A stretch of DNA of 64,000 bases from contig NZ_JAKVPE010000001.1 of the NCBI RefSeq assembly GCF_022482365.1, positions 806,001 through 870,000 of the forward strand, given 5' to 3'. A model generated the notes under the pieces. The model worked only from the letters and a program-made list of their open reading frames with translations. It was not told the origin of the DNA and did no database searches. Position numbers and translations under genes: made by a program. The stretch is from Limosilactobacillus sp. (lineage in GTDB: Bacteria; Bacillota; Bacilli; Lactobacillales; Lactobacillaceae). Every line of letters begins with the position of its first letter. Within the stretch, counting starts at the first letter, position 1. Below are positions 3,398 through 20,128 of this stretch, piece after piece.

Positions 3398-3970
3398 ATG
3401 AAGCTTAACAAGAAGATCTTAAACAGTTCGTTGGTAATCATGCTGGCATTGGGACTCGGCGGTTGCGCCGTTAGTTCCGCGCCAACGACCCACAAGGCAA
3501 GCGAGGCCACTAGTGCCAAGGTTGTCAAGCAGAGCAGCAAGAAGAATACCGATAAGTCGGCTAAAGCGGATAATAAGGCAGCCACCCAGAAGTCCGCAAG
3601 TCAAGCCACGAGCACGAGCAGCAGCGCCAGTTCAACTGCCGCAAGCTCCACGCAGGCAACAAACGTAAGCAGCGCTAGCGCCAAGGAAAGCCTGGCCGCA
3701 ACGACCAAGACGACCAGCGAGAACACTGCTACTACTGTTGCTACTAACAAGACGGCTCAGACGGCCACCAGCAAGGCCGCCAGTCAGCAAAAGCAAGAAG
3801 TTCAGCTCGGTCTCGGTGACGTTGCCAGCTGGACCGATGACAACGGTACGACCCACCACGTTGACAGCGATGGGATGGACCGTTACACCACCAAGGGCAG
3901 CCAGGACATCCAATACCAAGACTGGTCCGGCAGCCTGCCGCAGAATGTCGTTGTTAGCCACAACGATTAA
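3398..3970 (+). CDS. Lipoprotein with conserved C-terminal LGLGDV-HHVDSDGMDR domain
   Basis: 190 residues from the ATG at 3398, which has GGAAGGGG upstream; an in-frame GTG at 3386 overlaps that site and is rejected. The lipobox LALGLGGC marks a diacylglyceryl-modified, membrane-anchored protein. Residues about 25-130 are a low-complexity Ser/Thr/Ala/Lys stalk. Residues 134-190 form a compact domain: LGLGDVASWTDDNGTTHHV, then DSDGMDR and DWSGSLP. The same domain occurs twice in tandem in the lipoprotein encoded at 19298, whose signal peptide and stalk are also similar, so the two genes are paralogues. I do not recognise the domain. Conserved Trp, His, Asp and Gly residues suggest a small folded binding module, perhaps metal-binding (HHxDSDGMD), but this is inference. 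Confidence 0.8.
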   Translation: MKLNKKILNSSLVIMLALGLGGCAVSSAPTTHKASEATSAKVVKQSSKKNTDKSAKADNKAATQKSASQATSTSSSASSTAASSTQATNVSSASAKESLAATTKTTSENTATTVATNKTAQTATSKAASQQKQEVQLGLGDVASWTDDNGTTHHVDSDGMDRYTTKGSQDIQYQDWSGSLPQNVVVSHND

Positions 3971-4000
3971 TTGCTAATCAATAGCATCCCTACTAAAGAA

Positions 4001-4035
4001 GGAGTTACGTGTGATCGCGCGTAACTCCCTTTTTT
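4001..4035 (+). terminator. Rho-independent terminator
   Basis: Stem GGAGTTACG/CGTAACTCC followed by seven T residues, downstream of the lipoprotein gene and touching the end of the convergent LtaS-like gene. Confidence 0.85.
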
Positions 4036-6940
4036 ACTTTAAATATTTCAAAACGTAATGGTGACCGGCTGTAATGTCGTACTGGAGCAGCTGGTAGTCG
4101 TGCCACAGCTGCTTTTGGTGCTTGGTGAAGCTCTTCTTCTTGACGACCTTCCCCTGCTGGTTGACAAATTCGTTGCGGTCCGCCGTCTGGTCGCTGCTGG
4201 ACTGGTTAAAGTTCACCGCCACGGCCGGCAGCTGCTCGTACACCCGGGTCAGCAGCGCCTGGTACCAATTAACCCGCGAGTTGGTCTGCTTGGCAACCAT
4301 CGCTATGAAGTCGTTCGGATCAACGATCTTGCTGTTGGCCTTCAGGCTGTGGGCCCCGTGCCGGCGTGCATAGCGGTTCGAGTAGATAAAGTAGTCGGTC
4401 TCGTGGAGCTTCAGACCGTCGGTGGCCATGCTATTGCCGTAGATGCCCGGCAAGTGATCCCCGTAGAAGACCACGGTGATCGGCTTATTGATCCGGTCGA
4501 TCTGCTTGATGAACTGCTTGACGTAGTTGTCGGTGTAGTGAATCCCGGTGATGTAGTCGGTCAGCGAATTCTTATCCGTCCCGCTGGAAACGGTCTTGGC
4601 CTGGTATTGAGACAGATTGTTGTAATAATTCTGGTCAAACGGCAGGTGGTTCTGCATCGTGATCAGATTAATAAACTGACCGCCGGAATGGCCCTTGATC
4701 TGGTCCAGCGTGTTGGCATAGGCCGTTTTGTCCGACAGGTAGGGACTGCGGTCGATCTTGTGCTGGTGCTTGATCGGGTACTTGCTGCCGAGGTAGAGGA
4801 ACTTGTCAAAGCCAAACTTCTTGTAAACCGCGATCCGGCTGTAGAAAACGCCCTGGTATGGGTGGATGGCCACCGCGTGCTTGAAGCTGTCGACCACCGA
4901 CGGATCCTTGGCCAGCCGGGTTACCAGCTGGGTGTAAGGCACCGCCAGCGTCGGCAGGAAGTTGCTGAGGCTCAGCCCGGTCAGGGTCATGTATTCCATG
5001 TTCGCCGTTCCCCCACCGTAGCCGGAGCTGAGCATCAGGCCACCGGTCGTCTTTTTCTTGAGACTCGTGATGTAAGGAACCGGATTCTTCGTCAGGGTCA
5101 CGCCCGGCACTCGCTGTGGATTGGCAAAGCTCTCACTCAGGTTAAAGATCACCGTCTGGTCACCCAGCTTGTTGGTCCGGTGGCGATTAATCTGAGCCGC
5201 TTCCTTTTGATAGCGGCGAACAACCCGCTTCATTGTCGCTGCTGAGTAGCCACTGGGCTTTTTCATGACCTCGCTGTCGACGTTGTTTAAGAACTGCAGC
5301 GTCGGGCCGTTCCTCCGTGCCCCGTCCAGCTGACTGTAAAAGGTCGGTTGGTCGCCCAGCGAAGTCAGAAAGTTATTCAGCGGTCCCTGCTGGTTCCAGA
5401 AAAAGCTGGTTGCCAAAAGCAACGGCAAAACTAGCAGCCAGCTGATCCGGCGCCGCCAGGACCAGGTCAAGCGCAGCGGCATTTTCTTCTCGGCTAAAAC
5501 GACCAGGACCACCAGTATGAGAATCGCAATGCTCCCCATCAGCAGCGTTTTTGTGTCCACCATCTTGATCAGTTCAACGTTGAGCGCCGACAGGTCGGCC
5601 GGAAGCACCGGCTCGTTGCGGGACTGGATCTTAACCCGGCTCCCCACAATGAAAATCAGGTTGAAGATCACCACGATGGCGAGGCTGGTCCAGTAGCGCT
5701 TGGTCAGTGCCTGAAAGAACTTGACCCCGGAAAAGATGATCAGGGCCGTCATCAACAGGAGTGGTTCCCGTTGCCCGAGGGCGTAAGCAAGGGTGTTGTA
5801 GGTGGCGTTATCGATGTAGATCCGCCAGCCCTCGTTCATCAGCAGCATCGAGATCACCGCGATCAGGTAGGCCACCCCAAAGACGAGGAGGTTCGGCCCC
5901 AGGCGACGGCCCCAGCGCTTAATAACGGCCAGTTGATCGCGCGGTGTCCTGCTGCTAAAGCGGTGCAGGCGGTCATTGAAGCGGACCACTAGCGGCACGC
6001 GGGCCCAGAATTGCCAAAACACCGCCACCACCATTGCGAGCACTACGACCACCAGGGTCAGGAGGGCCACCCGTCCCGTGGACCGGTCCAGCGAACTCGC
6101 CAGGCTGGTGCAGACGTTCAGCGTCGCGGTCGCCTCCACCAGCGGCAAAAAGGCCCAGGTCAGTCGAACCGGTATCGTCGTTAAGGTCCCCTCGCCCAGC
6201 AGCTTAACCACGCTTAAAGCAATGAGCACCGTCAGAATATTCACCGGGGTGGAATAGCGGGTGATCGTGGCGCCGTTAATGCTAAACCAGGGCATCACCA
6301 CCTGGAGCCCGGTATTGAACAACAGGGCTCCGGCGCCAAGCAGCTCCCACCAGCGCTTCCCCCAGTTGAGGAGATGCTGATGACTCTCCAGCCAGCCGAG
6401 GAGGAACACTAGCGCGTAGAAAATGCTGGTGGTCTGTTCTCGCCAGCCAAAGATGCTAGGCGTAAAAATCGTCGAGGCGGTGATCATGGCCAGGCTCAGC
6501 CCACCAATCACTGCTTGCCAGCGTCGGGTAAGCTGATCGCTGATCCGGCCGAGCACTAGGCCGAGCAAGATCCCACTGATCAATGGGTACGAGTTCCGCA
6601 GGATCGGCAGGGCCGCATCATAGAAGGCCGTGGTCATTTCACTGGTGCTGAACAGGCTGATGATTAAACTGAGCAAGCAGCCGACAAACAGCGTATTCAG
6701 CCAGATCTTCACCAGCTGGGCCTTGGCATCGACGACCCGGCGTGCCAGGGAGGCCCCGAGCAGCAGAATTAAAATGTCCGGACCGATCATCGTCAAACCG
6801 CGGCTGACATTGAATATCACCGTTGCCAGGTCCCAGCCGTGGTTGCTAGTGATTTGCGGATTTAGCCGCCAGTAAAGCTGACTAAAACCCGCCCACCCCA
6901 AAATAATCAGGTAGGCGAGTCGTCCCCTAGTTTTCTTCAC
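4034..6940 (-). CDS. LTA synthase-like membrane phosphotransferase (sulfatase fold)
   Basis: 968 residues from a GTG at 6940 with GAGGTG eight bases upstream; a longer reading from 6991 lacks a ribosome-binding site. The N-terminal ~550 residues carry about 12-14 membrane helices, many more than the five of LtaS. The extracellular C-terminal ~400 residues are an LtaS/sulfatase-type alkaline-phosphatase domain: GGGTANMEYMTLTG with the probable nucleophile Thr645, LITMQNHLPFDQ, and the metal-binding FYGDHLPG with Asp828 and His829. Such enzymes transfer phosphoglycerol or similar groups from lipid donors to polymers or sugars at the outer membrane face. The gene may therefore make or modify teichoic-type polymers. 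It stands alone, flanked by terminators, so its link to the lic genes is only thematic. Confidence 0.8.
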   Translation of the reverse strand: MKKTRGRLAYLIILGWAGFSQLYWRLNPQITSNHGWDLATVIFNVSRGLTMIGPDILILLLGASLARRVVDAKAQLVKIWLNTLFVGCLLSLIISLFSTSEMTTAFYDAALPILRNSYPLISGILLGLVLGRISDQLTRRWQAVIGGLSLAMITASTIFTPSIFGWREQTTSIFYALVFLLGWLESHQHLLNWGKRWWELLGAGALLFNTGLQVVMPWFSINGATITRYSTPVNILTVLIALSVVKLLGEGTLTTIPVRLTWAFLPLVEATATLNVCTSLASSLDRSTGRVALLTLVVVVLAMVVAVFWQFWARVPLVVRFNDRLHRFSSRTPRDQLAVIKRWGRRLGPNLLVFGVAYLIAVISMLLMNEGWRIYIDNATYNTLAYALGQREPLLLMTALIIFSGVKFFQALTKRYWTSLAIVVIFNLIFIVGSRVKIQSRNEPVLPADLSALNVELIKMVDTKTLLMGSIAILILVVLVVLAEKKMPLRLTWSWRRRISWLLVLPLLLATSFFWNQQGPLNNFLTSLGDQPTFYSQLDGARRNGPTLQFLNNVDSEVMKKPSGYSAATMKRVVRRYQKEAAQINRHRTNKLGDQTVIFNLSESFANPQRVPGVTLTKNPVPYITSLKKKTTGGLMLSSGYGGGTANMEYMTLTGLSLSNFLPTLAVPYTQLVTRLAKDPSVVDSFKHAVAIHPYQGVFYSRIAVYKKFGFDKFLYLGSKYPIKHQHKIDRSPYLSDKTAYANTLDQIKGHSGGQFINLITMQNHLPFDQNYYNNLSQYQAKTVSSGTDKNSLTDYITGIHYTDNYVKQFIKQIDRINKPITVVFYGDHLPGIYGNSMATDGLKLHETDYFIYSNRYARRHGAHSLKANSKIVDPNDFIAMVAKQTNSRVNWYQALLTRVYEQLPAVAVNFNQSSSDQTADRNEFVNQQGKVVKKKSFTKHQKQLWHDYQLLQYDITAGHHYVLKYLK

Positions 6941-7006
6941 TGAAAAACACCTCGCTTCGTTGAAAACTATTATAGACGTTAAATATTGCAAATCTGTGAC
7001 ATATCG

Positions 7007-7047
7007 AAAAAACTAGCGATTGTCCTCAAAAAACAGTCGCTAGTTTT
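7007..7047 (-). terminator. Terminator of the GH43-like gene
   Basis: An 11-bp perfect stem, AAAACTAGCGA/TCGCTAGTTTT, with an 17-nt loop just after the GH43-like stop codon, with a T-run on the minus strand. Confidence 0.85.
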
Positions 7048-7049
7048 GC

Positions 7050-8138
7050 TTACTTATTCTTGATGATTTCACCATGACGAAGGACTATTGGGCTCTGCAG
7101 TGGTCGGACGGTTGACCAATGGCGACCGGCTAAGTCACTGGTTGCATAGTGTAGCCCATGGTAGACAACACCATTAGCTGCGGTTTGCTCCATTGTATCA
7201 AAATACAACCAAATCCGGTTGCCACTAACCAAGGCTTCAACCCCTTCTTTATAGCCCGGGCCAAGATCGAGGTGATGCATCTGATAGTTTCCCGTAGCAG
7301 TAGGTGCAGTCCCCATCATCAGTTGCTGGCGACTCTCATCCTTGCAAAACAAGTAGTACTTTCCGCGATAGTATTGAATATGCGGATCAATCACGTTTTC
7401 TGGAAAATTCCCTTGCAAACGCTTCCAACGTCTTCCAACCCGGTGATGGGTAAAAGTAGTGAGGTAAAGCTGGTGATGCAGATAAGAATCGTGGGTTTTC
7501 GACATCACTACCCATGTTCGTCCTTTGGAACCACTAACGAACTCGGGCGCCCAGTCCTGGGAATAACTGAAACCGTGATCAGCTGGCCATTTAATTTCTT
7601 GCCAGTGGCTAAAGTCAGTGGTCGACAGTAACCCCCGAGTATAAATAATGAAGTACCGTTTCCCTTGCCGCATAATACTGGGATCTCGCACACTGAGTGC
7701 CGGATAATTGGCACTGACCACCCGGTAGCGATTAAAGCGATCACCGACGATTAGTCGTAAGGTATCTCGGCCGCTGGTTGGTCGATTATAGCGCCGTTCC
7801 AAAATCGCCGGATCTGTCTGACCGCCGTGCTGAATGGGCACCGTCGTCGGCTGAAAGGTAACGCCAATGTATTTTGCATTATGAATCACCTTTCGCGGAT
7901 CCTGCCGTGGTACATAGGTTCCCACAATCATGTGCTGAGAATGGTGATAAGCAACCTTCTTTAAGCGGTACCCATTCTGATGACTAGCTTGCAGGATACG
8001 GACAAGTCGGGTAGACCGGTCTGGGGCAATCGACGCCCCATTTTGGTCCAGGTAACGAAAGGTTGTCCAATGCATCCCAAATACAATCAAGGCCACTAGC
8101 ACCCCCACTGTACAACCGAGTACAATCTTCTTTTTCAC
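7050..8138 (-). CDS. Membrane-anchored GH43-like five-bladed propeller protein
   Basis: 362 residues from GTG at 8138, chosen because GGGGAGA sits six bases upstream; the ATGs at 8153 and 8156 lack such a site. One N-terminal membrane helix (IVLGCTVGVLVALIVFGMHW) anchors it outside the cell. The rest reads as a glycoside hydrolase family 43-like beta-propeller: VRDPSIMRQGKRYFIIYTR (candidate catalytic Asp), YSQDWAPEFV and NVIDPHIQYYRGKYYLF, and VEALVSGNRIWLYFD (candidate acid Glu). GH43 enzymes release arabinose or xylose from polysaccharides. Here a membrane anchor and the single-domain format could mean trimming of a surface polymer, or an inactive binding propeller. The family call is moderately sure; the substrate is unknown. 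Confidence 0.65.
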   Translation of the reverse strand: MKKKIVLGCTVGVLVALIVFGMHWTTFRYLDQNGASIAPDRSTRLVRILQASHQNGYRLKKVAYHHSQHMIVGTYVPRQDPRKVIHNAKYIGVTFQPTTVPIQHGGQTDPAILERRYNRPTSGRDTLRLIVGDRFNRYRVVSANYPALSVRDPSIMRQGKRYFIIYTRGLLSTTDFSHWQEIKWPADHGFSYSQDWAPEFVSGSKGRTWVVMSKTHDSYLHHQLYLTTFTHHRVGRRWKRLQGNFPENVIDPHIQYYRGKYYLFCKDESRQQLMMGTAPTATGNYQMHHLDLGPGYKEGVEALVSGNRIWLYFDTMEQTAANGVVYHGLHYATSDLAGRHWSTVRPLQSPIVLRHGEIIKNK

Positions 8139-8154
8139 AATAAATCTCCCCATC

Positions 8155-8184
8155 AAAAAAGAGGTTGGGAATTCACCCAGCCTC
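8155..8184 (-). terminator. Terminator of the lipoprotein gene
   Basis: Stem GAGGCTGGG/CCCAACCTC with one mismatch, 6-nt loop, followed on the minus strand by six T residues. It lies between the lipoprotein stop and the GTG of the next gene. Confidence 0.75.
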
Positions 8185-8192
8185 AGCTAAAT

Positions 8193-8753
8193 TTATTCTT
8201 CAGTTACTGACGTGGCGGTCACGTGGTAGGTGTGGCCATTCCCGCTGACCGTCCAATCGTTAACCCCATTCTGAGTGGCCGTGTAGCCATCGATCTCATC
8301 CATTGACGGAACGTCCGGCCGTGCTTGACCGTTGACACCGGCCTCGTTGAGCTTATTTAAGATGTGTTCCTTAACGATGTTCTTGGCGTCGGTGGCCGTC
8401 ATCTGGACCTGACTTGTGGAATCACTATTCGCCTTAACGGCACTGGAATGGTCGCCGGTCTTGATAACGCTGTACTGCCCCTGTGTCTTCTGGGAGCTGC
8501 TTGCCTGGCTCGCGCCGGATTGAGAATTAGTCGTCACCTGGGAGCTAGCGGACTGGGCAGTCGAACTGCTGTCTTGCTTGCTCTCACTCTTCGCGGTGGT
8601 GTTCTTCTTGGTCGTTGAACTCGAAGGCTTCACAACCTTGGCTGACCGCGCCTCACTATCCTTGCTTGAATTTGTCGAAGTCGAATTGCCACATGCGGCA
8701 AGGGTCAACACCAGCGAACCAGCAGCGAATAAAGTCACAAATTTTTTATACAT
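8193..8753 (-). CDS. Ser/Thr-rich lipoprotein with small C-terminal PepSY-like domain
   Basis: 186 residues. The signal ends in the lipobox LTLAAC, so the protein is expected to be lipid-anchored at Cys21. A low-complexity Ser/Thr/Gln/Lys stalk (roughly residues 25-95) follows. The C-terminal ~75 residues begin TATDAKNIVKEHILNKLNEA and end in NDWTVSGNGHTYHVTATSV, a helix-plus-strands pattern similar to PepSY or uncharacterised Lactobacillus lipoprotein domains. The stalk start RSAKVVKPSSSTTKKNT resembles that of the lipoproteins at 3398 and 19298, but the C-terminal domain is different. A GAGGAG site lies upstream. The function is unknown. Confidence 0.75.
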   Translation of the reverse strand: MYKKFVTLFAAGSLVLTLAACGNSTSTNSSKDSEARSAKVVKPSSSTTKKNTTAKSESKQDSSSTAQSASSQVTTNSQSGASQASSSQKTQGQYSVIKTGDHSSAVKANSDSTSQVQMTATDAKNIVKEHILNKLNEAGVNGQARPDVPSMDEIDGYTATQNGVNDWTVSGNGHTYHVTATSVTEE

Positions 8754-8781
8754 ATAGATTTAGACACTCCTCAATACGGTA

Positions 8782-9969
8782 TTACAGAGTTACGTAATAA
8801 CTAGCGTTGTAGTACTTGTTGTAGCCGATCTTGACAACGTCACCCGGCTCTGGGGCGTGAACGTAGGCACCGTTCCCCAGGGAGATGGCAACATGGTATG
8901 GAGCACTGTCGCTACCGAAGAAGAGCAGGGCACCCTTTGGAGCGTTAGCAACGTCGTAGTGGTGCTTGCCCAGGGTCTGCTGCTGACTAGTCGTCCGGTA
9001 GTTGCTGCCCAGGCCGTAAGCCCATTGTACTAAACCGGAACAGTCAAAGCCAGTGGATGGCTTGTTGCCACCCCAAACGTAGGCGGTACCACGCACGGAC
9101 AGGGCCTTGTTGACGGCGGCACTGTGATCGTCAACCCAGGAACCATCGCTGTTGAAGTGGTAGCTCTGGCCGTTGATGGTCTGGTCGCCGGTGGCCATCC
9201 AGGCGTTCGTCGTGTCGAAGTAGTACCACTTGTTGTTGATCTTCTGCCAGCCGGTCAGAGCGTTGGCGTTGTTATTATCAAAGTAGTACCAGTTGCCGGC
9301 ACCAGACTTGTACCAACCAGTGTTGGCCCAAGCGTTGGTTTCGTCGAAGTGGTACCAGTTGTTGTTGATCTTCTGCCAGCCAGTATCGGCCCAGGCGTTG
9401 GTCTGGTCAAAGTTGTACCAGTTGTTGTTGATCTTCTGCCAACCGGTGTCTGCCCAAGCGTTGTTGTTATCAAAGTAGTACCAGTTGCCGGCATCGGACT
9501 TGTACCAGCCGGTCTTGGCGGAACCGTCGTCGTTGAAGAGGTACCAGTTGGAATTAGATTGGTACCAACCGGTCTTGGCGGCGCCGTTGTCGCCAAAGTA
9601 GTACCAGCTGTTGTTGACATTTTCCCAGGTGTTGGTAGCGTAATTGTTGGCGTCCTTGTTGTAGTAGTAAGTCCCGCCATCGCGCTGAACCAGGCCGGAT
9701 TCACTCGGCTGAGCAGCGTCATCATTGGTAGCGGCGGCGTTCTTCATCGTCCCGGTCAGCTGAACGGTCGTGGTCTGGCCATCCGTCGTCAGCTGGTCGC
9801 TGGAAGTTGCTTGGTTAGTCTGCGCAGTCACTGCAGTGTCGGTGGTGGTATCCGCCTGACCATCAACAGTTGCCATCGTCATACCGAGCGTCAGGGAAGC
9901 CAAAGCAACCATTGCCATGCTGAACCACTGCTTGCCACTCTTATATAACTTGAACCGTTTCTTAACCAT
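8782..9969 (-). CDS. Repeat protein with NlpC/P60 peptidoglycan endopeptidase domain
   Basis: 395 residues. The N-terminus FKLYKSGKQW is a KxYKxGKxW signal, removed after an Ala-rich segment near residue 39. A Thr/Gln-rich linker leads into about nine GW...WYYFD...NAWA repeats (residues ~95-285) of the cell-wall/choline-binding class. The C-terminal ~110 residues are NlpC/P60: catalytic Cys310 in GFDCSGLVQWAYGL and His359 in PYHVAISLGNGAYVH. These enzymes cut D-Glu-diamino-acid bonds in wall peptides. The repeats would hold the enzyme on the wall. The spacing from AAAGGAG to the ATG is long (about 15 bases). A WalR-like box lies about 115 bases upstream, suggesting cell-wall-stress control. 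Confidence 0.9.
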   Translation of the reverse strand: MVKKRFKLYKSGKQWFSMAMVALASLTLGMTMATVDGQADTTTDTAVTAQTNQATSSDQLTTDGQTTTVQLTGTMKNAAATNDDAAQPSESGLVQRDGGTYYYNKDANNYATNTWENVNNSWYYFGDNGAAKTGWYQSNSNWYLFNDDGSAKTGWYKSDAGNWYYFDNNNAWADTGWQKINNNWYNFDQTNAWADTGWQKINNNWYHFDETNAWANTGWYKSGAGNWYYFDNNNANALTGWQKINNKWYYFDTTNAWMATGDQTINGQSYHFNSDGSWVDDHSAAVNKALSVRGTAYVWGGNKPSTGFDCSGLVQWAYGLGSNYRTTSQQQTLGKHHYDVANAPKGALLFFGSDSAPYHVAISLGNGAYVHAPEPGDVVKIGYNKYYNASYYVTL

Positions 9970-10098: not shown

Positions 10099-10105
10099 TT
10101 CTTGT

Positions 10106-10159: not shown

Positions 10160-12082
10160 CTAGTCGGCGTAACCGAGCCAGTAACCATTATTATCAAAAT
10201 TGCTGTAACGACCGTCAACCTTTACGTGACCGGTCTGCATCTTGCCCTGGTCGTCAAAGTAGAACCAGTGACCCAGGTACTGCCAGCCGGTGTCGGCCCA
10301 AGCGTTCGTCGGGTCGAAGTAGTACCAGCTGTCGCCAATCTTTTGCCAGCCGGTCAGGGCCCAGGCGTTGGTGCTATCGAAGTAGTAGCGGTGGCCGTTA
10401 ATCGTCTGCCAGCCACTGAGTGAAGCACCATCGCTGCCGAAGTAGTACCAGTTACCGGCACCGGACTTGTACCAGCCAGTGACTGCGGCGCCACTGCCGT
10501 TGAAGAGGTACCAGTGACCATTGACCTTTTTCCAGCCAGTCTGCATGGCACCACTGCCGTTCAGCAGGTAGGTTGCACCGTTGATCTTTTGCAGCCCCGT
10601 TGCCATCTGGCCGTTAGACTGCAGGTAGTACCAGGCACCGTTGATCCACTGCCAGCCCGTCAACATCCAATCGTTGGTTGGATCCAGGTAGTACCAGCTG
10701 TTGCCGAGCTTTAGCCAACCGGCATCCGCCCAGGCGTTGTTGTTGTCAAAGTAGTACCAGTGACCGTTAATCCACTGCCAGCCGCTGGCAGAAGCGCCGT
10801 CGCTGCCAAAGTAGTACCAGTTGCCGGCACCGGACTTGTACCAGCCAGTGACTGCGGCGCCACTGCCGTTGAAGAGGTACCAGTGACCATTGACCTTTTG
10901 CCAGCCAGTCTGCATGGCCCCGCTGTTGTTCAGCAGGTAGGTTGCGCCATTGATCTTCTGCAGCCCCGTTGCCATCTGACCGTTGGATGAATTCAGATAG
11001 TACCAGGCACCGTTGATCTTCTGCCAGCCGGTTTGAAGCTTGCCGTTATTGTCGTAGTGATACCAGACACCGTTAACCTGACTCCAGCCAGGCTGGTGGG
11101 TCGTAGTGGTCTGCTGGCTACCGTTGTTCAGCTGCTCAGCCTTTGGCCAGATAAAGTGCATGTCGACCCGCTGAACGTTGAAGTTGAAGTGCCCCACCAC
11201 GTTGCCGTTGCTGTCGGTCGTGGTCCCGCTGTTCGTCGCGCTGGTGATGGATGGGTAAACCCCCATCACGGTGCCGTGCGTATTAGTCAGGAAGTTCTGG
11301 GCGTGGCCAAAGTTATCATTAGCATCCTGGAAGAGCATCCCCATGACCCCGTAGTAGATCATCGCCTGCAGGTCGTCCATATTGGTGACGACAATCAGTG
11401 GCAGATGGCTGCTGTCGGTCAGTTCGCTGCCCCGGACGGCCGCGAAGTGCTCGTAGCCGAGGTTGGCGATGTTGTCGTGGTAGAGGCCATAGGCACTGAT
11501 GTTTTCAGATGCCCCCTGCAGAATGCTCTGGTCGTGCCAGCCGTTATTCAACAGTGAAATCTGCTTGTTCTGGTACTGACCGGCCATGTTCTTGGCCACG
11601 TCAATGCTGCCCGCCGTCTGGGTAAAGCCGCTCTCGCCGAACTTGCTCCGGACCTGGTTGACCAGGTTTAAGGCAAAGTTGTTCATCTGGCTGGTTTGGT
11701 CCGCATTCAGGTTCGATACGTCAACGCTCTCGCTAGCGGTCTGTGGATCAGAGGTGTAGTTGTTCATCCGCATACCCTGGCCCGCGGTGTTGTTCTGGAA
11801 ATTAACGGCCGCCGTGTTGTCGTGGATGCTGCCCACCGCATTCAGCGTGTAGCCGTTCGGAATGTTGACCTGCTGGTTGTACTGGCTAGCGGCCGCCTTG
11901 GCAGTCGCAGCGTGCAGGTCGGTTGCCGAAATCGTGGCCGAGCTAATTGCCTGCTGCGTCGGCGTGGTCGTTGCCGTCGGGTCAACCTGAGTGTCGGCCT
12001 TGACGTTGCTGTCGATCGCCACTAACCCCATCGTCGTGGTCAGGGCTGCGACCATCGTCCATCGAGCAATTTTTCTATTCAT
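10160..12082 (-). CDS. SEC10/PgrA-type surface protein with C-terminal wall-binding repeats
   Basis: 640 residues from ATG 12082, which has GGGGGGAG upstream; the ORF extends to 12106 but without a site. An ordinary signal peptide (cleaved near VKADT) is followed by a ~300-residue domain of the SEC10/PgrA surface-exclusion family, related to CAP/SCP folds: NNFALNLVNQVRSKFGESGF, HDQSILQGASENISAYG, MIYYGVMGMLFQDANDNFGHAQNFL, MGVYPS and VDMHFIW. About 15 wall-binding repeats follow (residues ~330-640). Inside them a block of six repeats is nearly duplicated, 369 bp apart. The family is named after enterococcal aggregation/exclusion proteins; its role in lactobacilli is not established. It is paralogous to the gene at 14624. 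Confidence 0.85.
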   Translation of the reverse strand: MNRKIARWTMVAALTTTMGLVAIDSNVKADTQVDPTATTTPTQQAISSATISATDLHAATAKAAASQYNQQVNIPNGYTLNAVGSIHDNTAAVNFQNNTAGQGMRMNNYTSDPQTASESVDVSNLNADQTSQMNNFALNLVNQVRSKFGESGFTQTAGSIDVAKNMAGQYQNKQISLLNNGWHDQSILQGASENISAYGLYHDNIANLGYEHFAAVRGSELTDSSHLPLIVVTNMDDLQAMIYYGVMGMLFQDANDNFGHAQNFLTNTHGTVMGVYPSITSATNSGTTTDSNGNVVGHFNFNVQRVDMHFIWPKAEQLNNGSQQTTTTHQPGWSQVNGVWYHYDNNGKLQTGWQKINGAWYYLNSSNGQMATGLQKINGATYLLNNSGAMQTGWQKVNGHWYLFNGSGAAVTGWYKSGAGNWYYFGSDGASASGWQWINGHWYYFDNNNAWADAGWLKLGNSWYYLDPTNDWMLTGWQWINGAWYYLQSNGQMATGLQKINGATYLLNGSGAMQTGWKKVNGHWYLFNGSGAAVTGWYKSGAGNWYYFGSDGASLSGWQTINGHRYYFDSTNAWALTGWQKIGDSWYYFDPTNAWADTGWQYLGHWFYFDDQGKMQTGHVKVDGRYSNFDNNGYWLGYAD

Positions 12083-12170
12083 GTTACTCCCCCCACAATA
12101 AATCAATGATATTCAATACATATCAATTGTATCACTTTCGTCCACTGACAGCCGCCCACATTTGGCAATG

Positions 12171-12222: not shown

Positions 12223-14493
12223 TTAGCCGTGGTTGCGAATAACGGTCTCCGGGTTGAGCCAGGTTCCACCACCCGTTGGCTGCGACGAATCGGACCAGCT
12301 TGGCTGGAAGGAGTGGGCCAGGTCCTCACCATAGTTCGGGCTGGTGTTAATGCCGAGGTGCAGATGCCCCAGGTCCCGGTAGCCGATTACCTGACCAGGG
12401 TAGACGATGTCGTTGCGGCTAACCGTGATCTTGTTCCGGTTGCTGAAGGCCTCCTGGTAGACGTAGAGGTACTTGCCGTCGTAGATCGTGACGAACCACC
12501 AGAGGGTCTTGCCCTGGTCGTCACGAACCGTGTTGACGTCCAGCACCTTCCCACCGTGGACGGCGTGGACCGCTGAGCCAGGGTGATCGGAGGAGCCGAA
12601 GTCAAGCCCGTCGTGGTAGCCGTTCTCCCGTGGATAGCTCGAGTAGCCAAAGCGTTGGCCTGGCAGGAAGTAACCTTCCCCAGCCTGTGGGAACGGCCAG
12701 CTCCAGCCATCGTTCCATGGCTCGGCCGTCTCGGCGCCACTCGTGCCGAAGTTGTAGCAGTGACCGTCGACCCATTGAACGCCGGTGTACATCTGGCCAT
12801 AGGTATCATCGGAGTAAACCCAGTGTTCGTCGGGCTGGCTGGCGTAATAGCCGTCGGCGAAGTAGTACCAGTGACCATTGATGTACTGCCAGCCGGTCAT
12901 TGCCCAAGCGTTGGTTGGGTCAAAGTAGTACCAGAAGCCGGCCGCACTCTGGTACCAACCGGTCGTGGCCGTCCCGTTGTCGGCGAAGTGGTACCAATTG
13001 CCGGCCGTTGACTTGTACCAGCCGGTCGTGGCCGCACCCTGGTCACCGAAGTAGTACCAGCTGCCGTTGATCTTTTGCCATTGGTTGCTGAGGAAGCGAT
13101 CGGCACCGCGGTTGTAATAGTAATAGCTGCCGTTGATCTTAATCAGGCCGTCAGCAAGTGTGGACGTGTCGATATCCCCGCTGTTCGCATCAAAATTAAA
13201 GGTCCGCCCATCGCTGGTCAGCTGGGTTTGCCGACTGCCCGTCTGTGAATCGTAGTAGATCAGCTTGCCGGTGGCCGGGTCGAGGATCAGCCCCCGCTCC
13301 TGGTGGCCGGTAGCGGGATCAAAGTAGTAGTGGTAGCCATCGATCTCCGTGTCCCCGGTTGCCATCCGAGCCTGTGAATCGAAGTGGTACTCGTTGCCGT
13401 TGATGTTGCTCCAACCAAAGACGGCGGAACCATCAGCGTTGAAGTAGGACCAGGCGCCGTCGATCCACTGCCAACCAGTCTTCATTGCGCCGTACGTGCC
13501 GTCATGGTCTTCATTCAGGTAGTAACGCTTTTGGTTGATCGTCTGCCAGCCGGTCTTCATTTGATCCTGGTTGGCCGGGTCAAAGTAGAACCAGTTATTG
13601 TCGATCCACTGCCAGCCACTGAGCGCGGCCCCGCTGCCATTCAGGTAGCGCCAGGCACCGTCAGCCCACTGCCAGCCGGTCTTCATCGCGCCGTACGTGC
13701 CGTCGTGACTTTCGTTCAGGTAGTAGAGCTGGTTGTTGATCGTCTGCAGGCCAGTTTCCATCTGACCATGAGCTGCCGAATTGAAGTAGTACCAGTTGCC
13801 GTCGATCTTTTGCCAGCCGGTGTCGGCCCAGGTCTGACTCGGGTCGAAATAGTACCAGCTGTTGTTGAGGTTCTGCCAGCCCCGCAGCGTCCAGGCATTG
13901 GCGTTGTCACCGTAATACCACTTGCCGCTCGCAGTCTGGAACCAACCGGTCTTGGCCTTGCCGGTGTTGTCAAAGTAGTACCAGTTGGTGGCCGGGCTCT
14001 GGTACCAGCCGGTCCGAGCGGCGCCGTTGTCGGCAAAGTCGTACCAGCTGCCGTTCAGGTTCTGCCAGCCAGTCTTCATCGCCCCATAGGTTCCGTCGTG
14101 CTGCTCGTTCAGGTAATAGGTGGCGTTATTGATCGTCTGCAAGCCGGTCTCCATGGCGTTACTCTGCTGGTTCAGGTAGTACCAGTTATTGCTGATGCTC
14201 TGCCAGCCGGTCTGACTGTTACCGTTAGTGAAATAGTACCAGTTGCCGTTGTCAGTCTGCCAACCATTGGCTGCCTGACCCTCGGCATTCTTCCAGGTGC
14301 CATCGGCCTGCTTGGTGTAGCCGGCAACGCTCTGCTGCGTCGTCACCGTGGTGGTCGTGGTGCCCGCAGTCGTCGTGGTATTAGCGTCATCCGCCTGCGC
14401 CGGTGCGGCCATGGTCAGGCCGAGTCCGGCCGTCAGCAGGCAGGCAATTAACCACTTTTTCCCCGCTTTGTACAGCTTAAAGTGTGTCTTCAT
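12223..14493 (-). CDS. Repeat protein with M23 (LytM-type) endopeptidase domain
   Basis: 756 residues. Signal FKLYKAGKKW (KxYKxGKxW type), a short Thr-rich linker, then about 20 wall-binding repeats. The array includes extended repeats containing DGTYGAMKTGW and, around residues 385-475, a non-canonical module (GHQERGLILDPATGK, TGSRQTQL, DGRTFNF, FLSNQWQKINGSW) that is shared with three other proteins here. The C-terminal 130 residues are a zinc M23 peptidase: His627 and Asp631 in HDGLDFG, His710 and His712 in LGHLHLG. Such enzymes cut peptide bonds of peptidoglycan cross-links or stems. The start has GGGGAG upstream. The closest relative in the window is the gene at 59785, which has the same WPFPQ-GEG lead-in and domain order. 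Confidence 0.9.
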   Translation of the reverse strand: MKTHFKLYKAGKKWLIACLLTAGLGLTMAAPAQADDANTTTTAGTTTTTVTTQQSVAGYTKQADGTWKNAEGQAANGWQTDNGNWYYFTNGNSQTGWQSISNNWYYLNQQSNAMETGLQTINNATYYLNEQHDGTYGAMKTGWQNLNGSWYDFADNGAARTGWYQSPATNWYYFDNTGKAKTGWFQTASGKWYYGDNANAWTLRGWQNLNNSWYYFDPSQTWADTGWQKIDGNWYYFNSAAHGQMETGLQTINNQLYYLNESHDGTYGAMKTGWQWADGAWRYLNGSGAALSGWQWIDNNWFYFDPANQDQMKTGWQTINQKRYYLNEDHDGTYGAMKTGWQWIDGAWSYFNADGSAVFGWSNINGNEYHFDSQARMATGDTEIDGYHYYFDPATGHQERGLILDPATGKLIYYDSQTGSRQTQLTSDGRTFNFDANSGDIDTSTLADGLIKINGSYYYYNRGADRFLSNQWQKINGSWYYFGDQGAATTGWYKSTAGNWYHFADNGTATTGWYQSAAGFWYYFDPTNAWAMTGWQYINGHWYYFADGYYASQPDEHWVYSDDTYGQMYTGVQWVDGHCYNFGTSGAETAEPWNDGWSWPFPQAGEGYFLPGQRFGYSSYPRENGYHDGLDFGSSDHPGSAVHAVHGGKVLDVNTVRDDQGKTLWWFVTIYDGKYLYVYQEAFSNRNKITVSRNDIVYPGQVIGYRDLGHLHLGINTSPNYGEDLAHSFQPSWSDSSQPTGGGTWLNPETVIRNHG

Positions 14494-14573
14494 TGCTTCA
14501 TTACTCCCCTTTGAAATCAGTCGTTACAGGAACATTCTACCACCACTGTCACTTTTCCTTAAGGGGTGATAAA

Positions 14574-14611
14574 TAAAAAACGCCTTAGGACGGTGAAGCC
14601 CCAAAGCGTTT
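14574..14611 (-). terminator. Terminator of the second PgrA-like gene
   Basis: Stem AAACGC(C)TT/AAAGCGTTT followed on the minus strand by a T-run of six. Confidence 0.7.
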
Positions 14612-14623
14612 CAAAATTAATAT

Positions 14624-16597
14624 TTAGTAGCCAAGCCAGTGGCCATTATTGGCGAAGTGGTAGAGGCGGCCGTTGATCCGCACGCTGCCGGTTTCCATCT
14701 TGCCGTTGGCGTCGAAGTAGTACCACTGACCGTTGATGTAGTGCCAGCCGGTCAGGGCCCAGGCGTTGGTTGGGTCGAAGTAGTACCAGTTGCCGTTAAC
14801 GGTCTTAAACCAGCCCTTCACTGCCCAGGCATTGTCCAGGTCAAAGAAGTACCAGTGACCGTTGATCCGTTGCCAGCCGGTGTCGGCCCAGGCGTTCGTC
14901 GGATCGAAGTAGTACCAGTTACCGGCGGCCGTCTGGAACCAGCCCTTCATTGCCCAGACGTTCTGGGTGTCGAAGTAGTACCAGCGGTTGTTGATCTTCT
15001 GCCAGCCCTTCAGCGCCCACGCATTCGTCGGGTCAAAGTAGAACCAGTTGCCCGCCGCGGATTGGAACCAACCAGTGTCGGCCCAAGCGTTCGTTGGATC
15101 GAAGTAGTACCAGTTCTGGGCGGCCGTCTGGAACCAGCCCTTCAGCGCCCAGGCGTTGTTGTCGTCGAAGTAGTACCAACGACCATTAATCTTCTGCCAG
15201 TTAGTGGCTGTCTGTGCCGTGTCCGGGTTAAAGTAGTACCAATTGCCTGCCCCAGACTTATACCAGCCGGTCTGTGCAGCCCCATCGGTATTGAAGTAGT
15301 ACCAGTGGGAATTGATCGACTGCCAGCCGGTCAGGAACTTACTGTTCTCAAAGCGGTACAGCTTGCCGTTGATCGTCCGCCAGCCGGTTACCGTGCCGGA
15401 CGTGTTTGAGCTCGACGGCTGCGTCGGCTGAGCTGGCTGCTTTGGCGTGACCGTTTCACCAGTCGTTGTCGATTGCGCAGGAGTCGACGGCTGCTGGGCC
15501 GGCGTCGATGGCTGAGCAGCGGGAGTAGTTGGCTGCACAGGAGTGGTCGGCTGCGCGGGAGTGGTTGGCTGGGTTGACGGTGCCGAGGACTGAGTCTCGT
15601 TGGAAGTCCCCTGAGCCCAAATGAAGTGCATGTCGACGTTCTTCAGCTTGTACTGGAAGTGCGTCCCATTCGAATAGAGGCCGGTGCCGTAGCCATCAAG
15701 GATGGACGGGTAAACCGCCATCGTCGGGATCGGCTGGTAGTTCGTCAGGAAGTTCTGAGCATGGCCGTAGATGTCACTGGCGTCGTCAAAGAGCATCGTC
15801 GTGACACCGTAGTAAATCATGGCACGCAGGTCATCCATCGTGGTCACCGTGAACAGGGGAATACTGTTTTCGTTGACGAAGTCGCTGCCCTTGGCGGTCG
15901 CAAACGGCCGCACGAGGGTCCCCCACTGGTTATCGGCGTAGATTTGCATGGCGGAGATGTTTTCACTGTCATTCAACAGGATGGTCTCGTCATGCCAGTA
16001 ACCAGTCAGCAGTGACTCCTTCTTGTTCTGGTACTGCAGAGCCTTATTCCGGACTTCGGCAATCGTTCCGGCGTCCTGGCTGTAGGCGGACTCGCCAAAG
16101 GCCGCCCGAGCGTTGTTAACCAAGTTCAGGGCATACTGGTTCATCTCGCGAACCTGCTGGTCGGTTAACTGGTCGATGTTGATCGACTCGGCCGCCGCCG
16201 CACTGTTGGATTGGTAGTTGTTGCTGGTCAATCCCGGCAGGGCCTTCTTGTTGAATTCATTGGCCGCCGACAGGTTATTGATACTGCGCAGGTCACTCAA
16301 GTTATAACCACTCGGGAAATTGATCTGCTGGGCTGCGGTTACATCGTTGGAATAGGCCGCAGCATTAGAATAGCTAGCCGCCTTGGCCGTAGCAGCGCTG
16401 GCTGTTGCCCCACTGACTGCGACGGAACTGCTCGCCACCTGCTGACTTCCGGCAGCGGATTGGTTCAGCGTCGTTGCAACGTTAGTGGTCTCACCGGTCG
16501 GTGCATCATCGGCCCGGACGTTGTTGACCATTGAGACGGTACCAAATGCCATCGTCAGGGCCGTCAGCGCCGTTAACTTTAGTACTTTCTTATCCAT
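14624..16597 (-). CDS. SEC10/PgrA-type surface protein with wall-binding repeats (second copy)
   Basis: 657 residues from ATG 16597, supported by GGGGG upstream. Same plan as the protein encoded at 10160: conventional signal, PgrA-type domain (MNQYALNLVNNARAAFGES, HDETILLNDSENISAMQIY, MIYYGVTTMLFDDASDIYGH, VDMHFIWAQ) and C-terminal repeats. It differs by a Pro/Thr/Gln-rich spacer of about 70 residues (PTTPAQPTTPVQ type) between domain and repeats, which would hold the domain further from the wall, and by only ~12 repeats, mostly of the DPTNAWA type. The two paralogues alternate with peptidoglycan hydrolase genes. The function is unknown beyond family naming; attachment to the surface through the repeats is inferred. 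Confidence 0.85.
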   Translation of the reverse strand: MDKKVLKLTALTALTMAFGTVSMVNNVRADDAPTGETTNVATTLNQSAAGSQQVASSSVAVSGATASAATAKAASYSNAAAYSNDVTAAQQINFPSGYNLSDLRSINNLSAANEFNKKALPGLTSNNYQSNSAAAAESINIDQLTDQQVREMNQYALNLVNNARAAFGESAYSQDAGTIAEVRNKALQYQNKKESLLTGYWHDETILLNDSENISAMQIYADNQWGTLVRPFATAKGSDFVNENSIPLFTVTTMDDLRAMIYYGVTTMLFDDASDIYGHAQNFLTNYQPIPTMAVYPSILDGYGTGLYSNGTHFQYKLKNVDMHFIWAQGTSNETQSSAPSTQPTTPAQPTTPVQPTTPAAQPSTPAQQPSTPAQSTTTGETVTPKQPAQPTQPSSSNTSGTVTGWRTINGKLYRFENSKFLTGWQSINSHWYYFNTDGAAQTGWYKSGAGNWYYFNPDTAQTATNWQKINGRWYYFDDNNAWALKGWFQTAAQNWYYFDPTNAWADTGWFQSAAGNWFYFDPTNAWALKGWQKINNRWYYFDTQNVWAMKGWFQTAAGNWYYFDPTNAWADTGWQRINGHWYFFDLDNAWAVKGWFKTVNGNWYYFDPTNAWALTGWHYINGQWYYFDANGKMETGSVRINGRLYHFANNGHWLGY

Positions 16598-16638
16598 TAC
16601 TAACCCCCACTCTCGCGACAAATATCTTTATATTAATG

Positions 16639-16667
16639 ATTATAATAGACATTTGTGTCTTTATAAA
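16639..16667 (-). promoter_or_regulatory. Possible promoter of the second PgrA-like gene
   Basis: On the minus strand TATAAT at 16644-16639 is preceded at 17 bases by a weak TTTATA. It fills the 77-bp gap after the amidase gene and gives the PgrA-like gene its own start. Confidence 0.4.
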
Positions 16668-16674
16668 GCTTTAT

Positions 16675-19020
16675 TTAAGCCCAGTAGAAGTTTGGCCGGT
16701 AGACCATCTGGTAAGGACAGTCATCCTGCTGCCAGTACCACTGGTAGTTGAATTCCTGAACCGCCATGTTCGGGTTACCGTGGCCCCATGGTGCTTGATC
16801 ACCGTAGTAGGCGTTGGTTGAAATACACATTGGGTCGCTGCCACCAGTTGAAACTACCGAAACGTGGCCGGCGCCACCAGCAGAGTGTCCTGGGTTCCCC
16901 CAGATGACGATGTCCCCGTAGCGAACGTCCTGAACGCCACGGCCAGAGCCAGCAACGTAGTAACCGTTGGACAGGAGATAATTGCCAAGGGTCTCAGTCG
17001 AGTAAATCATCGATGGCCGGGAACCACCGGCAGACCAAACGGCCATCGTCATCGAACCGGAACAGTCGGCGGTCCCGTCACGACCGGTCCGTGAGCCGTA
17101 GAGGGAGTAGGTCAGCTTGCCTTCCCGGTCCAGGAACCAGTTAATGACCCGCTGACTGAAGCCGACGAAGCCACCCCAGCTCTGCAGAGTTACCTTGTGG
17201 CCGTCGATCCAGTGCGTCCCGGTGTACATGTAGGCATTGACAGGATCGAAGTAGTACCAGTTGTGACCAATGAAGCCCCAGCCGCGGTCGGCCCAGGCAT
17301 TGTCAGGATCGAAGTAGTACCAGTTGTTGTTGATCTTCTGCCAACCGGTCAGTGCCCAGGCGTTAGTATCGTCAAAGTAGTACCAGTTGCCGGCGGCCGT
17401 CTTGTACCAGCCGGTCCGGGCACTGCCGTTGTCATTGAAGCAGTACCAGCGACCATTAATCTTCTGCCAGCCAGTCTGCATGGCGGCATTGTCACCGAAG
17501 TAGTACCAGCTATTAGCATACTTGTACCAGTAATCGTGGGCAAAGGTGTTAGCCGCCCGGTTGAAGAAGTACCAAGTATTGCCGATCTGGTTGAAGCCGT
17601 CCGCCAGATCAGTGGTGATCATGTCGCCACTTGCCTGGTCAAACGTGTAGGTCTTGCCGTTAAGGATTACCTGACTCTGCCGGCTGCCGTTCGTTTGGTC
17701 AAAGTACTGGAGCAGGCTGGTCGCTGGGTTAAATACCAGGCCCTTCTCCTGCTTGCCGGACGTTGGGTCAAAGGCGTAGTAGTAGTCACCGATCTTCGTG
17801 ATGCCGGTCGCCATCTGGGCCGTCTCCGGATCGAGGTAGTACTCGCTGCCGTTGATCGACTGCCAGCCTAGCGCGGCCGCACCATTGCCCTGGAAGTAGT
17901 ACCAGGAACCGTCGACCTGCTGCCAACCGGTCTGCATGGCACCGTAAGTTCCGTCGTGGTTTTCATTCAGGTAGTAGGTCGTGTCACCGAGCTTTTGCAC
18001 CCCGATCAGCATGGCGCCCGTCTCCGGGTTCAGGTAGTACCAGTGGCCGCCAATGTTCTGCCAGTTGGTCTCCAGCCAGGCGTTGACCGTGTCAAAGTAA
18101 TACCAGGAGTCACCCAGCGTCTGCCAGCCGGTCAGGGCCCAGGCGTTATTATTGTCGAAGTAGTAACGATGGCCGTTGATCGTCGACCAGCCGGTTTGCC
18201 CCTGGCCGTCCTTTAAGAAGTAGTACCAGTGGCCATTGATATAGTGCCAGTCGTTATAAGCTGCACCATCGTCGGGGCCGCCAAAGCCGTACCACTTGCC
18301 GTTGATCTTCTGCCAGCCACTCTTCATCGCACCGTACGTGCCGTCGTGCTGGTCATTTAAGTAGTAGGTCCGGTTGTTAATCGACTGCAGCCCCGCCAGC
18401 ATCTGGCCCTGGTTGGCCGGGTCGAAGTAGTACCACTGCCCGTCCAGCTTGCCCCAGCCGGTGTGGGCGGCACCGTTGCCTTCGAAGTAGTACCAGTGAC
18501 CACCGACGTTTTGCCAGCCGGTCTTCATGGCGCCATAGGTACCGTCGTGTTGCTCATTCAAGTAGTATGTGGCGTTGTTGATCGTCTGCAGGCCGGTCTC
18601 CATGGCACTGCTGTCGTTGTTCATGTAATACCAATTGTTATCGATCTGCTGCCAGCCGGTGGTGTTGGTCCCGTCCTTGAAGTAGTACCAGTCGGAACCC
18701 TCGGTCTGCCAGCCGCTTGGCGTTTGGCCGTCAGCGTTCTTCCAGCTGTTGTCCGACTGGTGCGTGTAACCGTTGATGGTCGTCGGCACCGTCGACGTGG
18801 ACTGCTGATCCTGCTGACTGTTCTGCTGCTGGGTGGCGGCCGTGGTCGTCTGACCGGTAGTCGTAGTCGTCGTGTTCTTGACAACTGCTACCGTGGTCGT
18901 GGCGTCATCCGCATGGGCAGCTTCGGGCGCAGCTACCGTCGTCAGGCCAATCCCCAAGGCCACGAGGCACGCCGTCAGCCACAGTTTCCCTGCTTTATAC
19001 AGCTTAAAATGTGTCTTCAT
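16675..19020 (-). CDS. Repeat protein with Pal-like amidase (Amidase_5) domain
   Basis: 781 residues. Signal FKLYKAGKLW, a Thr/Gln linker, about 21 wall-binding repeats with the extended DGTYGAM type and the non-canonical GKQEKGLVF...NGSRQSQV module also found in the genes at 12223, 53508 and 59785. The C-terminal ~140 residues match bacteriophage peptidoglycan hydrolases of the Amidase_5 family (pneumococcal phage Dp-1 Pal): Cys653 in GTADCSGSMTMAVW and His719 in GAGHVSVVS, followed by a NAYYGDQAPWGHG segment. Pal cuts the MurNAc-L-Ala bond and is targeted by choline-binding repeats, the same pairing seen here. No phage structural genes are nearby, so it acts as a host autolysin or was captured from a phage. 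Confidence 0.85.
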   Translation of the reverse strand: MKTHFKLYKAGKLWLTACLVALGIGLTTVAAPEAAHADDATTTVAVVKNTTTTTTGQTTTAATQQQNSQQDQQSTSTVPTTINGYTHQSDNSWKNADGQTPSGWQTEGSDWYYFKDGTNTTGWQQIDNNWYYMNNDSSAMETGLQTINNATYYLNEQHDGTYGAMKTGWQNVGGHWYYFEGNGAAHTGWGKLDGQWYYFDPANQGQMLAGLQSINNRTYYLNDQHDGTYGAMKSGWQKINGKWYGFGGPDDGAAYNDWHYINGHWYYFLKDGQGQTGWSTINGHRYYFDNNNAWALTGWQTLGDSWYYFDTVNAWLETNWQNIGGHWYYLNPETGAMLIGVQKLGDTTYYLNENHDGTYGAMQTGWQQVDGSWYYFQGNGAAALGWQSINGSEYYLDPETAQMATGITKIGDYYYAFDPTSGKQEKGLVFNPATSLLQYFDQTNGSRQSQVILNGKTYTFDQASGDMITTDLADGFNQIGNTWYFFNRAANTFAHDYWYKYANSWYYFGDNAAMQTGWQKINGRWYCFNDNGSARTGWYKTAAGNWYYFDDTNAWALTGWQKINNNWYYFDPDNAWADRGWGFIGHNWYYFDPVNAYMYTGTHWIDGHKVTLQSWGGFVGFSQRVINWFLDREGKLTYSLYGSRTGRDGTADCSGSMTMAVWSAGGSRPSMIYSTETLGNYLLSNGYYVAGSGRGVQDVRYGDIVIWGNPGHSAGGAGHVSVVSTGGSDPMCISTNAYYGDQAPWGHGNPNMAVQEFNYQWYWQQDDCPYQMVYRPNFYWA

Positions 19021-19215
19021 AAATTACTCGATCCCTTCAAAATTTATAGAATCCAACATTATAATACTAACATTGTTTAGCCGTGAATAAAGGCCTTGTC
19101 AGCGAACGGTCAAACTTTTCAGTTAGCTGAATTTGCACCGCCACGAATCAATGGTTAATAATAGGTAGCTATTTCAGACAATTGGCTAATAATATTCAAT
19201 GATGTATCAACTATC

Positions 19216-19244
19216 TTACATCTATATTGCAAAAATGTTACAAT
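19216..19244 (+). promoter_or_regulatory. Promoter of the two-domain lipoprotein gene, TTACAT-N17-TACAAT
   Basis: TTACAT (19216-19221) and TACAAT (19239-19244) are separated by 17 bases, identical hexamers and spacing to the promoter at 3314. The spacer sequences themselves differ. Confidence 0.6.
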
Positions 19245-19297
19245 ATAAATAGAAGGAGTGGTTAAATTAGATGTTCGATAGAGGGGAGCGCTAAATC

Positions 19298-20128
19298 ATG
19301 ATTAAAGTTACAAAAAAATTATTAAACACCTCGTTAGCTTTACTATTAGCGTTAGGGCTTGGTGGCTGTGCGGCCACTAATCAGGCTTACACCCACAAGA
19401 CTTCCAACGAACCAACAAGCGCAAAGACCGTTAAGCAAAGTACTGCCCAGCATAAGGCAGTGACCAAAGAGAGTAAGCAAGCAACTAAGAAGAGCGCCAA
19501 GGCGGAATCGACGAGCGCAGCCAGCGAGAGCAGCAGCGCAGCTAGTTCGACCAGCGCACCGGTAAGTTCCACGACCGCACCGAGCCAAGGCACGACGGCT
19601 AGTCAGCAGCCAGCCACGACGAATCAGGCAACTCAGGCAGCTACAACGACCACCTACCAGCAGAACAACGCTGACACCACCGCGGCAACTACTAGCCAAG
19701 CCCCGGCAGCTGCAACGACCACGCCAAAGGCAACCAGTAACCAGCAGCAGGGCGAAATCCAGCTTGGCCTTGGTGACGTTGCCGTCTGGACCGACTCCTA
19801 CGGCATCACCCACCATGTCGACAGTGACGGGATGGATCGTCAGACGATCGCCGGCAGCACCCAGGTAAACTACGAAGACTGGTCTGGTTCACTGCCAGCC
19901 GACGCCCAGGTGATTCACAATGGTGACGAACAGCACGAAGAGATTCAGCTCGGCCTCGGTGACGTCGCCGTCTGGACCGACTCCTACGGCATCACCCACC
20001 ACGTCGACAGCGACGGGATGGATCGTCAGACGATTGACGGCAGTTCCGAGATTCACTACGAGGATTGGTACGGATCACTGCCGACCAACGCCCAAGTTAT
20101 CCACAACGAAACGTCAATTGGTAACTAA
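19298..20128 (+). CDS. Lipoprotein with two tandem LGLGDV-HHVDSDGMDR domains
   Basis: 276 residues; GAGGGGAGCG precedes the ATG. The lipobox is LALGLGGC, identical to that of the lipoprotein at 3398. A long Ser/Thr/Ala/Gln stalk reaches residue ~150. Two copies of a ~57-residue domain follow, at about 153-210 and 215-271, each with LGLGDVAVWTDSYGITHHV, DSDGMDRQT, DW(S/Y)GSLP and QVIHN. The copies are almost identical in DNA (19754-19922 and 19940-20108), suggesting recent duplication. The gene shares promoter hexamers with its one-domain paralogue. I do not know the domain. Because the stalk carries the domains through the wall, a role as a surface binding or sensing module is possible but unproven. 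Confidence 0.8.
   Translation: MIKVTKKLLNTSLALLLALGLGGCAATNQAYTHKTSNEPTSAKTVKQSTAQHKAVTKESKQATKKSAKAESTSAASESSSAASSTSAPVSSTTAPSQGTTASQQPATTNQATQAATTTTYQQNNADTTAATTSQAPAAATTTPKATSNQQQGEIQLGLGDVAVWTDSYGITHHVDSDGMDRQTIAGSTQVNYEDWSGSLPADAQVIHNGDEQHEEIQLGLGDVAVWTDSYGITHHVDSDGMDRQTIDGSSEIHYEDWYGSLPTNAQVIHNETSIGN

Follow-up and report, generated by a model that had tools for sequence, protein, structure and literature searches.

Two lipoproteins encoded in the window, by which we mean the whole 64,000-nucleotide stretch of Limosilactobacillus DNA analyzed here, end in a 57-residue domain that is confidently predicted to be five-stranded and all-β, has no match over cut-off in the family and structure collections searched, and at most of its loci is encoded close to repeat-bearing surface proteins. 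The reading we favor, and hold tentatively, is that the domain is an envelope-binding head displayed by stalked, wall-spanning lipoproteins, with phased promoter repeats under an OmpR-type regulator. The relevant features are listed in Table 1.

Table 1. Positions of the lipoproteins, domain copies, promoter elements, and neighboring repeat proteins in the window
Feature	Position	Strand	Remarks
Promoter element TTACAT-N-AAT-R-TTTCAAA..TGTTACAAT	3314..3342	+	three 5-6-base repeats in 11-bp phase, before lipoprotein A
Lipoprotein A, 190 aa	3398..3970	+	signal peptide, lipobox Cys, stalk with SAKVVK motif, one domain copy
Module 1 (head domain), single copy	3803..3967	+	C-terminal in lipoprotein A
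Terminator-like hairpin	4001..4028	+	3' of lipoprotein A; consensus match only
Third stalked lipoprotein	8193..8753	-	similar N-terminus (SAKVVK), C-terminal module 3; no phased repeat within 120 bp upstream
Choline-binding-repeat protein with NlpC/P60 domain	8782..9969	-	weak phased repeat upstream
Choline-binding-repeat protein with SEC10/PgrA domain	10160..12106	-	
Choline-binding-repeat protein with SEC10/PgrA domain	14624..16621	-	
Choline-binding-repeat protein with Amidase_5 domain	16675..19020	-	divergent neighbor of lipoprotein B
Promoter element, second copy	19216..19244	+	before lipoprotein B
Lipoprotein B, 276 aa	19298..20128	+	signal peptide, lipobox Cys, stalk with SAKTVK motif, two domain copies
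Module 1, tandem copy 1	19754..19921	+	lipoprotein B
Module 1, tandem copy 2	19940..20107	+	lipoprotein B; subject of the AlphaFold model
Choline-binding-repeat protein	20201..21853	+	directly 3' of lipoprotein B

As the original prediction held, the domain occurs once in lipoprotein A and twice in lipoprotein B, and both open reading frames have the signal peptide, lipobox Cys, and stalk of a lipoprotein together with the described motif (LGLGDV-x-WTD...THHVDSDGMDR...DWxGSLP). The lipobox reads LALGLGG followed by Cys in each, and lipoboxes are listed for 47 proteins of the window and related loci. If lipidated as predicted, the head proteins should sit on the membrane's external surface. The stalk is a low-complexity segment of 60-130 residues. 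In the 45 proteins that were parsed, it has 59 residues or more (63-90% Ser, Thr, Ala, Gln, Asn, and Lys), 43 of them have a KVVK-like motif after the Cys, and the head, measured from its final LP, ends 8-16 residues before the stop; the parse makes the L070 stalk too long and leaves out L085. A signal peptide, lipobox Cys, disordered-looking stalk, and small C-terminal domain are also common to other low-complexity-stalk bacterial lipoproteins, which form no single family. Unlike these, the Limosilactobacillus proteins carry a head that lacks a curated family match, and they exchange the C-terminal module between species at one syntenic locus.

A fourth head copy lies about 1.2 kb beyond the end of the window (contig positions 871196-871360), and profile search of the genome recovers all four with E-values of 2.6e-36 to 3.8e-20, which excludes chance. 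The DNA of the tandem copies had been called near-identical, which is too strong: identity is 84% over 168 nt, with about 19 synonymous and 8 nonsynonymous differences and a longest exact run of 35 nt. His21, Asp24, and Asp29 are invariant among 48 copies, and Asp9, Asp15, and Asp26 are nearly so. Over the first 30 codons of the domain, 1176 pairs from 49 copies give a mean pN of 0.144 and a mean pS of 0.752, a ratio of about 0.19 with pS near saturation. The conservation, the pN/pS ratio, and the confident β model all support the proposal that conserved residues joined to variable stalks reflect a selected fold.

The AlphaFold2 model of tandem copy 2 (48 copies) has five strands in an all-β arrangement with pLDDT 90.8 and pTM 0.75. 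In the model of the tandem (pLDDT 73.1, pTM 0.44), the strand pattern appears twice and the linker is of low confidence. The head had been described as not assignable to a known family, and our searches agree. Pfam and NCBIfam give no match over any cut-off, the best hit among PDB sequences has an E-value of 0.78, and Foldseek with the head model returns nothing below E 0.9 in PDB or 0.16 in BFVD. The missing fold match is not proof of a new fold. In the comparison with Sm-like and small-barrel structures, the best VIA-align Z of 4.1 (rmsd 3.0, 50 residues aligned) is tied with WD-blade matches, and middling Z-scores are common with this method. Rfam gives no match, nor does PADLOC at E ≤ 0.01.

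Two partial matches count weakly against non-assignability. DUF4124 (PF13511) is matched by 14 of the 48 copies, the best scoring 19.7 bits against a gathering cut-off of 22; it has a W-T-D-x-x-G-x-x-H hairpin in common with the head, but this covers only 11 of 56 profile positions. The phage protein family phrog_37928 (unknown function, profile without a cut-off) is matched by the doubled domain over about 37 residues with an E-value of 6.1e-5, and by 7 of 48 single copies at 0.063 or worse. In addition, a WTLxDGVVHDLDxDG stretch in periplasmic proteins of three genomes, which we take to be LptF/LptG-like, matches head positions 4-26 (E 0.002-0.008). The match spans only half of the domain, and the proteins are large membrane proteins from other classes; we read it as a similar hairpin rather than as kinship.

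Profile searches place the head in 26 of 50 Limosilactobacillus genomes (54 matches at E ≤ 0.01), with no credible match outside the genus in partly overlapping samples of 301 family, 395 order, and 398 phylum genomes. Five family hits (E 0.04-0.1) and four phylum hits (E 0.002-0.008) were inspected and read as partial hairpins or reversed-strand ORFs. A pattern scan of one genome per species over 84,980 species, which reaches close relatives only, yields 44 loci, all in Limosilactobacillus, [Lactobacillus] timonensis, or Lactobacillus sp. Searches of phages, plasmids, and viral contigs with the head find no match, and tblastn against phage records gives nothing at E ≤ 1. We found no paper on the motif string or the lipoprotein in the open-access library searched. 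On a tree built from 56 columns, in which many forks are unresolved, the copies cluster by locus type (5 changes, all groups together, versus a shuffled mean of 24.9), and this grouping suggests old paralogous loci. The ORF at 2667 of L117 (G043:C6) encodes a divergent copy with the motif HHVNWDGTD and a 23-residue extension. It lies between enolase-like and amino-acid-permease-like ORFs, with a triosephosphate-isomerase-like gene also adjoining and no surface genes.

Repeat proteins, for which initial neighbor clustering had pointed the way and which were found with home-made profiles, are encoded within 5 kb of the head gene at 38 of 44 loci (25 genomes). The repeats are of the choline-binding type at 21 loci and of the RDV type at 17, and both types are found together at none of the 44. 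According to an excerpt of PMC11299179, RDV repeats are an FNIII-type domain. In five of the genomes, 9 of 12 head loci, partly overlapping the 44, have a repeat protein, compared with 0 of 20 random 10-kb loci; none of the eight loci of lipoproteins ending in a different C-terminal module (module 2, below) has one, one of these loci being cut to 6 kb. The head loci without a repeat protein are L078, L079, L083, L086, L089, and L106, of which L078 and L083 are cut by contig ends just past the gene. The copies at L089/L150 and L151 likewise have no repeat protein nearby, and the 5 kb around lipoprotein A (L143) are also free of them, the NlpC/P60 protein being the closest. The repeats of SEC10/PgrA proteins are of the choline type in the window (10160-12106) and of the RDV type in L. 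panis (L070:5232-7682), so the head domain is kept although the part that binds the wall differs.

The association extends to whole genomes when both repeat types are added. Choline and RDV repeats taken together are more numerous in the 26 domain-bearing than in the 24 domain-free genomes (Mann-Whitney p 3.1e-6), and 23 of the former versus 9 of the latter have at least 20 repeats; this combined measure was adopted once the locus result was in hand, the choline count of a repeat-rich genome is a minimum, and kinship is uncorrected. Choline repeats alone do not differ between the two groups (p 0.33). A genome-level link to choline metabolism was also considered and dropped, licD being present in 8 of 26 versus 2 of 24 genomes (p 0.077, not significant). 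Across the 50 genomes, choline and RDV/FNIII repeats are nearly exclusive, and only G025 has at least 10 of both. The window itself encodes 13 choline-repeat proteins and, at 44273-51184, a lic-type choline-decoration set consisting of a BCCT transporter, a LicC-like nucleotidyltransferase, a 607-aa nucleotidyltransferase/choline-kinase fusion, and LicD. It also contains three 376-aa ORFs of identical protein sequence (22047-23177, 39881-41011, and 43021-44151), presumably IS30-like transposases, two of which flank a low-GC gene at 41203-43029.

The 29-bp promoter element is found as an exact copy at two sites in the 2.34-Mb genome, before lipoproteins A and B, and nowhere else with up to 2 mismatches; a further eight sites have 3 mismatches, compared with 2 in the control. 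Its copy at 3314-3342 overlaps a sigma-70-like promoter with TG preceding the second hexamer. Within 3 mismatches the element is present at 21 of 44 head loci and absent from 23, and the best of 20 control loci has 7 mismatches. Exact RTTWCA-N5-RTTWCA sites occur within 120 bp upstream of 6/8 module-2, 21/49 module-1, and 0/3 module-3 genes, and of 0/137 controls; one module-2 miss has only 41 bp upstream and another is in a record without intergenic DNA. Within 200 bp, such a site precedes 1 of 44 choline-repeat genes (8782-9969 in the window) and 0 of 10 RDV genes, so promoter control shared with the repeat-protein genes is unsupported beyond that single gene. A phased site, GTTACATTTATGTAACATGGCTTTTACATT, is seen on the reverse strand at 61990-62016 before the choline-repeat gene 59785-61854 and is nearly unchanged in L107.

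The promoters of EPS-type, reuteri-type, and mucosae-type loci are different. Module-1 genes beside glf/wzx (L093-L107, L145) have a conserved TATAATTATACTATTAA some 60 bp upstream of the start codon, in most cases with AGTATAG after it, which is possibly an operator of a second kind. The element of lipoproteins A and B resembles OmpR-type operators in its 11-bp direct-repeat spacing, a likeness of layout only, for which the WalR and PhoP consensus sequences serve as comparators. The hexamer-N5-hexamer arrangement appears as the consensus of an OmpR/PhoB-family regulator in an excerpt of PMC4938410.

Other C-terminal modules are carried on the same kind of lipoprotein. Module 3 of the third window lipoprotein (NDWTVSGNGHTYHV) has relatives in L071 and L176, and neither it nor module 2 matches anything in Pfam over cut-off. 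A search of ten repeat-rich domain-free genomes with lipoprotein A finds matches in nine, mostly through the N-terminus and stalk; the C-terminal ends of these relatives are the 70-residue module 2 at eight loci, module 3 at one, and others at two. At a syntenic locus marked by a transporter pair, which we presume to be of the ABC type (63-73% identity to L151), the lipoprotein ends in head 1 in L. timonensis and in head 2 in four other species (G006, G010, G040, and G016). This difference may reflect a single replacement, recombination between paralogs, or convergence. When the N-terminus of lipoprotein A is compared with those of four module-2 and both module-3 proteins, every one of the six comparisons scores above all 300 shuffles, and head-1 and head-2 N-termini likewise exceed 300 shuffles in their similarity in the comparisons made with L151 and lipoprotein A. 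N-terminal kinship is uneven, and some module-2 pairs do not rise clearly above the shuffles (L168/L173, 25 of 300; L168/L171, 26 of 300). In L172 (G035:C1:514200-524800), unlike the related L171, most called genes abut without intergenic DNA and all are on a single strand, and with this layout the record may consist of joined coding sequences rather than real genome order.

These proteins could form a genus-level display system, in which one chassis (signal peptide, KVVK-type motif, and stalk) and one phased-repeat operator serve exchangeable, unrelated small heads. Head 1 follows choline- and RDV/FNIII-anchored surface proteins alike, so on this account it would recognize something common in the envelope that persists when the repeat type changes. 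We regard this broader scheme as possible, and hold it a little less firmly than the role proposed for the head itself.

For that role, the lipobox would anchor the protein at the external membrane surface, and the stalk would bring the exposed C-terminal head as far as the wall or across it. The conserved Trp/His/Asp/Tyr surface may there bind some component of the envelope, the likeliest candidates being a glycopolymer and a part common to the adjoining, non-covalently held surface proteins. An OmpR-type response regulator would govern part of the family through the 11-bp-phased promoter repeats. Sequence and prediction give good support to lipidation, display, and the fold of the head; binding of an envelope component is suggested by the neighbors and by the aromatic and acidic conservation. 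As the head is constant while its neighbors use choline or RDV/FNIII repeats, it probably does not recognize the repeats themselves. Counting against the reading as a whole are the six repeat-free head loci, the repeat-free surroundings of lipoprotein A, the nine repeat-rich domain-free genomes, the divergent copy beside an enolase-like gene, the non-significant choline-only and licD genome tests, and the absence of the element from 23 of 44 loci.

A somewhat unlikely competitor is an assembly or docking factor, whose head would capture neighboring surface proteins at or after export, by a SEC10/PgrA-type N-terminal domain or signal region, and aid their folding or placement. Close linkage to two unrelated kinds of repeat protein would suit such a factor, as would the lipoprotein's presence whether SEC10/PgrA proteins carry choline or RDV repeats. 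However, no single domain is common to the nearby surface proteins (a PgrA-like probe finds 10 of 44 loci and the KxYKxGKxW signal 22 of 44), and the genes of many repeat proteins are distant from every head copy. We think it less probable still that the protein is a host- or mucus-facing adhesin, with the stalk lifting the head above the wall to bind a host glycan or protein and the clustering being that of a mere surface-gene island. Surface and polysaccharide genes abound at the head loci, SEC10/PgrA domains are linked to adhesion in an excerpt of PMC4667477, and exchange of C-terminal modules suits a changing ligand; yet module 1 is strongly conserved across species from different hosts, unlike a typical host-specific adhesin, and a stalk of 60-130 residues may be too short for a thick wall.

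The invariant and near-invariant His and Asp residues, clustered in HHVDSDGMD, could alternatively act as ligands in a metal- or small-ligand-sensing head. This is improbable, given that the adjoining His varies to Asn, the divergent copy has a changed cluster, Cys is lacking, and the neighbors are not metal genes. Descent from a choline repeat with retained choline binding is very improbable: NGVTHHVDSDGM resembles NGKWYYFDSDGxM by eye over a short stretch, and the head genes lie beside those for Choline_bind_3/Choline_bind_1 proteins (PF19127, PF01473) in a window with lic genes, but none of the 48 copies matches these models at E ≤ 1, hhalign aligns two columns with a probability of 0.1 (a weak test at Neff 1.8), and most domain-bearing genomes lack licD.

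Little is known about the surface lipoproteins of gut lactobacilli. If the envelope-binding reading is true, the head would be both a marker of and a handle on the way surface proteins without a covalent attachment are retained. The genus would then offer a natural experiment in which some species use choline repeats and others RDV/FNIII repeats while the head stays constant. The exchanged C-terminal modules under a common promoter element would add a new example of a constant chassis on which heads are swapped.
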